From Candidatus Peregrinibacteria bacterium HGW-Peregrinibacteria-1 (GTDB lineage: Bacteria; Patescibacteriota; Gracilibacteria; UBA1369; LOWO2-01-FULL-3): a stretch of DNA of 64,000 nt. A program made the translations under genes and the position numbers. Below the pieces are notes generated by a model. It did not search any database and was not told the DNA's origin. It saw only the letters and a list, made by a program, of their open reading frames with translations. The stretch lies in the NCBI GenBank assembly GCA_002839505.1, contig PGYE01000001.1, positions 771,995 to 835,994 of the forward strand. Direction: 5' to 3'. Below are positions 9,152-9,605 of this stretch, piece by piece (position 1 is the first letter of the stretch; each line of letters starts with the position of its first letter).

Positions 9152-9195
9152 CATGCCCTCAGAATACAAAACAATAACAACTTCATCAAGAACAA

Positions 9196-9320
9196 GAAGT
9201 TTTAAAAAAAGGCACTGACTGCTAGGCAAAGACGAGGAAACCAAGCAAGCCGTACTAGATTGCTACGGCGAGCTGTTTTCAAGTCTTTAACAACGCAGGC
9301 GGTGCCTTTTTAAAAACTTC
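9196..9320 (-). ncRNA. 125-nt extended hairpin directly after the rpsU stop codon
   Basis: Nested complementary segments pair across the whole element: GAAGTTTT with AAAAACTTC at the ends, GGCAC with GTGCC, CTGC with GCAG, AAAGAC with GTCTTT, AAAC with GTTT, and an apical GCCGTA/TACGGC stem closing a nine-base loop. Read on the minus strand the structure begins at the rpsU stop codon and finishes with a run of T, so it could end rpsU transcription, but it is far longer than an ordinary terminator. It could be a stable 3' UTR RNA, an attenuator between rpsU and prmC, or a small repeat element. Pairing is read by eye. Confidence 0.6.
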
Positions 9321-9526
9321 TAATAGTACTGGTTCTTCTTTCGCAAAGCTCTATACTCCTCCCTCTTAACCGCTCCATCACGCACCTGTCTCCTAGTCGC
9401 ATCTTTTTGGAAATATCTTGATTTACGAATTTTATAAACCTTTCTGCTTCCTTGAACTAGCTTATTAAAACGGGTAATCATCCGCTCATTTGACTCACCT
9501 TCTCTTTTTTGAACTACTACTTGCAT
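9320..9526 (-). CDS. rpsU: Small ribosomal subunit protein bS21
   Basis: A 68-residue, very basic protein that sits beside the 3' end of 16S rRNA, near the anti-Shine-Dalgarno. The sequence follows the family from the VVVQKREGESNERMITRF start through KSRYFQKDATRR to a basic C-terminus that ends in two tyrosines (NQYY). Unlike nearly every other gene here it has a complete Shine-Dalgarno and its own promoter, and an unusual hairpin starts at its stop codon. It is followed by prmC. In many bacteria rpsU sits with dnaG and rpoD; here those genes are about 40 kb away. Confidence 0.95.
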   Translation of the reverse strand: MQVVVQKREGESNERMITRFNKLVQGSRKVYKIRKSRYFQKDATRRQVRDGAVKREEYRALRKKNQYY

Positions 9527-9532
9527 ATTATC

Positions 9533-9541
9533 TCACCTCCT
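9533..9541 (-). promoter_or_regulatory. Strong Shine-Dalgarno of rpsU
   Basis: On the minus strand AGGAGGTGA matches all nine bases complementary to the usual anti-Shine-Dalgarno core. The spacing from AGGAGG to the ATG at 9526 is nine bases. It fixes the rpsU start and stands out because almost all other starts in this window lack any such sequence. Confidence 0.9.
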
Positions 9542-9577
9542 TTTAATTGCATTACATAATAAAAATATAACCACCAG

Positions 9578-9605
9578 ATTATATAGTCACATTCTTAAAT
9601 TGCAA
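9578..9605 (-). promoter_or_regulatory. Promoter of rpsU
   Basis: Minus-strand TTGCAA (9600-9605) and a consensus TATAAT (9578-9583) are separated by 16 bases. Transcription would begin near 9571, giving a leader of about 45 bases that includes the strong Shine-Dalgarno. It lies in the gap after tdk, so rpsU need not depend on the gyrB-tdk transcript. Confidence 0.65.

Follow-up and report, generated by a model that had tools for sequence, protein, structure and literature searches.

The anti-Shine-Dalgarno (ASD) sequence belongs to the most conserved segments of ribosomal RNA, and its persistence in organisms that make no use of Shine-Dalgarno (SD) sequences calls for an explanation. For Flavobacterium johnsoniae, McNutt et al. 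2023 (PMC9976891) describe an ASD that is sequestered in a pocket formed by bS21, bS18 and bS6, and report that ribosomes without bS21 free the ASD and preferentially translate rpsU, the sole gene with an SD. SD-scarce organisms that do not possess the CCUCC core include Candidatus Peribacter riflensis and the Absconditabacteria (PLoS One 2024, PMC10783764). Here we describe rpsU of a Peregrinibacterium, whose surroundings were analysed as a window of 64,000 nucleotides (bases 771995-835994 of one 998,424-base contig). The comparison with its relatives points to an old SD signal that survives mainly for the self-control of one ribosomal protein.

The rpsU locus and its Shine-Dalgarno sequence

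The rpsU gene is located on the minus strand (9320..9526), flanked by tdk and prmC and further out by gyrB and prfA, and encodes a bS21 protein of 68 amino acids with an ATG start. The protein is diverged. Its weak but sole match is to the S21 families, with 15.2 bits for PF01165 and 14.8 bits for TIGR00030, both under the cut-off, so that routine annotation may overlook the gene. A profile built from twelve relatives detected a bS21 homologue in 29 of the 30 family genomes; the corresponding counts are 74 of 79 for the order and 155 of 192 for the genomes sampled from the whole phylum. PF01165 used alone missed most of the relatives, and a few of them passed the S21 family cut-off. The profile of the relatives matched solved bS21 chains with a best E value of 1.1e-6; relatives with a name belong mostly to Candidatus Peregrinibacteria and other Patescibacteria. 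In some genomes of the order bS21 is degenerate or could not be detected (G044:C13, G032, G043, G056 and G084), and the ASD core is broken where the tail of these genomes is known (G044, AACAUUCCC; G084, AAUGUCUCU).

The sequence upstream of the rpsU start reads TTAAAAGGAGGTGAGATAATATG. The extended SD, AAAGGAGGTGA, is located at 9533..9543 on the minus strand and ends 6 nt before the ATG. The 16S 3' end of this genome is intact (GGATCACCTCCTTT), and the SD forms with its tail AUCACCUCCUUU an uninterrupted duplex of 11 bp with an energy of -17.7 kcal/mol (ViennaRNA). The initial annotation, which had asked for an inspection of the 16S 3' end, had counted nine bases complementary to the ASD; the contiguous pairing is longer still. 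It had also assigned to rpsU its own promoter and a leader of about 45 bases. A promoter-like element TTGCAA-16-TATAAT with 10/12 matches is present at 9578..9605 on the minus strand, and its position agrees with a leader length of about 45 nt (9527..9571, minus strand) with a start deduced from the -10 box; the promoter scan found one such site and 1.2 are expected in shuffles, so the site is not significant alone. Folding of this putative leader in comparison with shuffles revealed no regulatory structure (z +1.8).

Directly 3' of rpsU, between rpsU and prmC, lies a long imperfect, near-palindromic hairpin of 128 nt (9195..9322, both strands). The folding energy is -50.9 kcal/mol on the minus strand (z -6.4) and -58.3 kcal/mol on the plus strand (z -8.2). 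A partial copy is found in L223 (83% over 86 nt) and weaker copies occur elsewhere. The element is possibly a bidirectional terminator or a repeat element.

Scarcity of Shine-Dalgarno sequences in the genome and its relatives

For an energy scan we used 301 called genes from 384 kb of the 998-kb chromosome (38%), scored at the first ATG and compared with mock windows. The gene starts were mechanical calls and not annotation, and the gene caller used strand-specific codon tables because of the extreme GC skew of the whole chromosome. An upstream energy of -8 kcal/mol or lower was reached by a single one of these genes (L032, 14657-15103, start doubtful) in comparison with 17 in mock windows, and the mean upstream SD energy was weaker than in the mock windows. 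Before the gene starts A is enriched and G depleted; the Kozak-like leaders of Bacteroidia have likewise G-poor, A-rich upstream regions. An exact search of the whole chromosome with GGAGGTGN{2,10}ATG (GGAGGTG..ATG) resulted in 58 matches, and inspection of all of them identified rpsU as the only convincing gene start. The remaining matches were rejected as further perfect SDs, as they were internal to longer reading frames or located in very short spurious ones. Judged by energy for 38% of the genome and by this exact pattern for the whole of it, no SD is stronger than that of rpsU, in a genome where SDs are scarce. The claim that rpsU is one of very few genes with an SD is thereby confirmed, with one of 301 called genes at -8 kcal/mol or lower, and neither the energy sample nor the genome-wide pattern revealed many equally strong SDs.

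Concerning the composition of the chromosome, the GC skew has one sign along the sampled chromosome (G000:C1) including the window, with a C-rich plus strand and a value of about -0.3. There is no switch at an origin or terminus, and one 4-kb piece at 30 kb shows a value of 0.00. Genes are present on both strands, and the third-position skew of about 0.6 has the opposite sense for the genes on each strand. The same phenomenon has been described for Microgenomates, for which a mostly one-directional replication was proposed (PMC7143001), and a normal GC skew for Peribacter riflensis (PMC4736985).

Across the order, rpsU was scored with the 16S tail of the same genome where it is known and with the canonical tail otherwise. 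The SD reached -8 kcal/mol or lower in 47 of 76 scored genes and -13 kcal/mol or lower in 38 of 76. In the other 29 genomes a strong SD is missing and bS21 is retained. The expectation that rpsU would be an outlier throughout the clade was therefore borne out in so far as the signal recurs in the order, although it is not universal. The absence from relatives, named in the initial annotation as evidence against the idea, does occur, and these losses accompany changes of the 16S tail. Genes adjacent to rpsU (20-kb stretches in 40 genomes) reached -8 kcal/mol in 3 of 445 cases and -10 kcal/mol in none, compared with 14 and 3 in the corresponding mock windows. An SD in front of rpsR, the bS18 gene, as known from Bacteroidales, was found in 0 of 29 genomes of the order that were examined. 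Since rpsR has no SD in any of these 29 genomes and nearly all neighbours have none, the signal is specific to rpsU and not a feature of ribosomal genes in general.

The arrangement is not confined to the order. Strong rpsU SDs are present in several SD-scarce Patescibacteria beyond it (G162, -16.9; G105, -17.1; G114, -15.9; G201, -14.1; G110, -14.3 kcal/mol) and also in some SD-using members of the phylum (G153, -19.1; G220, -18.0 kcal/mol); some other sampled Patescibacteria have no rpsU SD. As both types of genomes carry it, the rpsU SD may go far back in the phylum, and the restriction of the SD to one gene may be a derived condition. About one third of the sampled rpsU genes outside the order seem to start with TTG or GTG behind an extended SD (for example G153, G220, G095, G105, G162 and G205, the last possibly with CTG), which resembles the rare start codon of infC.

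Joint changes of the rpsU Shine-Dalgarno sequence and the 16S tail

The 16S 3' tails could be read for 52 genomes of the order with a scored rpsU, a number limited by pattern searches that miss fragmented or intron-bearing 16S genes. All 24 genomes with the canonical tail AUCACCUCCUUU retained the rpsU SD, whereas with altered tails it was present in 11 genomes, in a usable and frequently compensated form, and absent in 17 (Fisher p 1.9e-6, uncorrected for kinship). The CCUCC core is broken in 12 genomes, 10 of them without the SD. In G021 and G023, which retain it, the tail AUCAUCUCC is combined with a compensating SD, AAAGGGGATGA, which reaches -14.9 kcal/mol with their own tail compared with -10.2 kcal/mol with the canonical one. 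G010 and G026 share this SD and G011 carries AAAGGTGGTGAT; the 16S tails of these three genomes are unassembled.

The exchange C1533U is compensated by GGTG to GGTA in four of the five SD-bearing genomes with U1533 (exception G050), and C1535U by GGTGA to GATGA in the two genomes with a known tail (G021 and G023); the latter SD recurs in the two with an unknown tail (G010 and G026). An alignment of SD and tail (30 rows) contains 7 cells altered on both sides compared with 1.7 in shuffles, and none of 500 shuffles was as high, with the counts inflated by the relatedness of the genomes. The true register of SD and tail was better than every slid register, and sliding destroyed the pairing. When mapped onto a 16S tree, the SD changes 7 times and the core 8 times. 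After this correction for phylogeny about 4 independent pairs agree with the expected direction and 0 oppose it, a number too small for significance. Assembly errors are possible in metagenome-assembled genomes; rpsU and 16S share one contig in several genomes, for example G020, G002, G054, G058 and G066. In outgroup relatives the ASD core is lost (AACAUCUCC).

Taken together, the sequence comparison supports a pairing of SD and ASD at rpsU well, and this pairing is apparently a main reason for the persistence of the ASD. As an evolutionary corollary, the ASD would be held largely by rpsU alone and would decay in lineages whose rpsU gives up its SD. The more general form, that Peregrinibacteria-like bacteria keep the ASD through rpsU alone, change it only together with rpsU and let it collapse once rpsU stops using it, is to our judgement evenly balanced.

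A proposed feedback loop and its comparison with known systems

We consider it probable, at roughly two in three, that the extended helix of SD and ASD recruits the rpsU mRNA and that subunits lacking bS21, with an exposed ASD, translate rpsU preferentially and thus close a feedback loop. Nearly all translation in this genome would initiate without SD pairing, and the rpsU mRNA would be recruited through a helix of 8-12 bp. In complete 30S subunits the 16S 3' tail would most likely be occupied with participation of bS21, by analogy with Flavobacterium, and subunits without bS21 would expose it. If such subunits favour rpsU, the supply of bS21 would track the number of incomplete subunits. From the same analogy we infer the occlusion of the ASD in complete ribosomes, the role of bS21 as a gate and the negative direction of the feedback. 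The logic would be weaker for the SD-using Patescibacteria with strong rpsU SDs. The parallel to Bacteroidetes drawn in the initial annotation stands for the outlying SD, the intact ASD, the recurrence and the covariation; its feedback part is a proposal. The two C-terminal tyrosines, cited there as evidence, were rejected as a signature: relatives mostly end with KFY, with or without an SD.

A strong SD could also simply provide high constitutive translation of rpsU without feedback. It could boost a short unstructured leader, and the covariation supports pairing whatever its purpose. This explanation seems unlikely. The demand for bS21 equals that for other ribosomal proteins, but no SD precedes rpsR or the sampled neighbours, and an ASD free in all ribosomes would be expected to be exploited by other genes and not avoided. 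Another proposal is that immature 30S subunits expose their ASD regardless of bS21 and rpsU reads the state of assembly in general. The late entry of bS21 into assembly, reported in PMC9976891, and the unaligned Tyr54 of the Bacteroidia pocket would agree with it; we regard it as quite improbable, as it singles out rpsU less naturally than a loop specific for bS21.

That the SD is a relic, kept by inertia from SD-using ancestors, would fit the wide distribution of extended rpsU SDs in the phylum, SD-using lineages included. Retention in 24 of 24 genomes with the canonical tail and the compensatory changes require ongoing selection, which makes this origin very unlikely. An artefact of strand composition or gene calling can hardly be believed: the minus strand is G-rich genome-wide, with 134 matches to AGGAGG..ATG compared with 14 on the plus strand, but energies of this size are rare both in mock windows and at the true starts of the other genes on that strand, and composition does not fit the covariation of SD and tail across relatives.

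In the more general form stated above, in which selection through rpsU alone preserves the universally conserved ASD, the SD-ASD system of Peregrinibacteria-like bacteria would have been reduced to a channel reserved for a single gene. The natural series of canonical, compensated and decayed tails ties the persistence of the ASD to one gene in a phylum distant from Bacteroidota. It suggests specialised ribosomes without bS21 as a recurrent regulatory device and offers a simple genomic test for other lineages. Circuits of this type have precedents; apparently new are the case proposed here and the coupled ASD decay. A search of the openly licensed literature, in which absence is not proof, revealed no paper that brings rpsU, SD and Patescibacteria together.

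The pocket for the ASD cannot be identical to that of F. johnsoniae. In the Bacteroidia pocket of bS21, bS18 and bS6, Tyr54 of bS21 stacks on A1534, a residue with no aligned counterpart here: in an alignment by eye the corresponding position 54-55 is non-aromatic in the bS21 of the order, and the nearest tyrosine is a near-invariant Tyr58. In bS18 of the order (L244-L273) the basic motif normally found ahead of the conserved Gly reads PRYYSG or PKYYTG, and this aromatic pair might bear on the 16S 3' tail.

The survey of organisms lacking CCUCC (PMC10783764) covers the same broad bacterial group and reports a loss of the ASD core as in our outgroup relatives; it says nothing about rpsU for these phyla and draws no link between rpsU and the loss. 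The rpsU of Chlorobia, treated computationally in PMC9976891, shares the extended SD, the SD-scarce background, the missing Tyr54 and a feedback proposed by inference. Chlorobia belong to a different phylum, and the available text of that report describes no decay of the ASD for them. F. johnsoniae, as presented in the same text, differs from the system described here in belonging to the Bacteroidota and in the experimental basis of its autoregulation; here the circuit is proposed from sequence comparison. Further differences here are the consistent lack of an SD at rpsR (29 examined) and the many relatives in which the SD disappeared along with changes of the ASD. Shared with F. johnsoniae, whose rpsU autoregulation that report describes, are the SD-scarce genome and the intact ASD. 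There rpsU clearly leads all genes with an energy below -13 kcal/mol and a helix that comprises 9-13 bp, compared with -17.7 kcal/mol and 11 bp here. The same paper also describes covariation of ASD and rpsU SD in Flavobacteriales lineages with an altered ASD, the same type of evidence as presented here. With the same genomic signature in both organisms, the same circuit is the best explanation.
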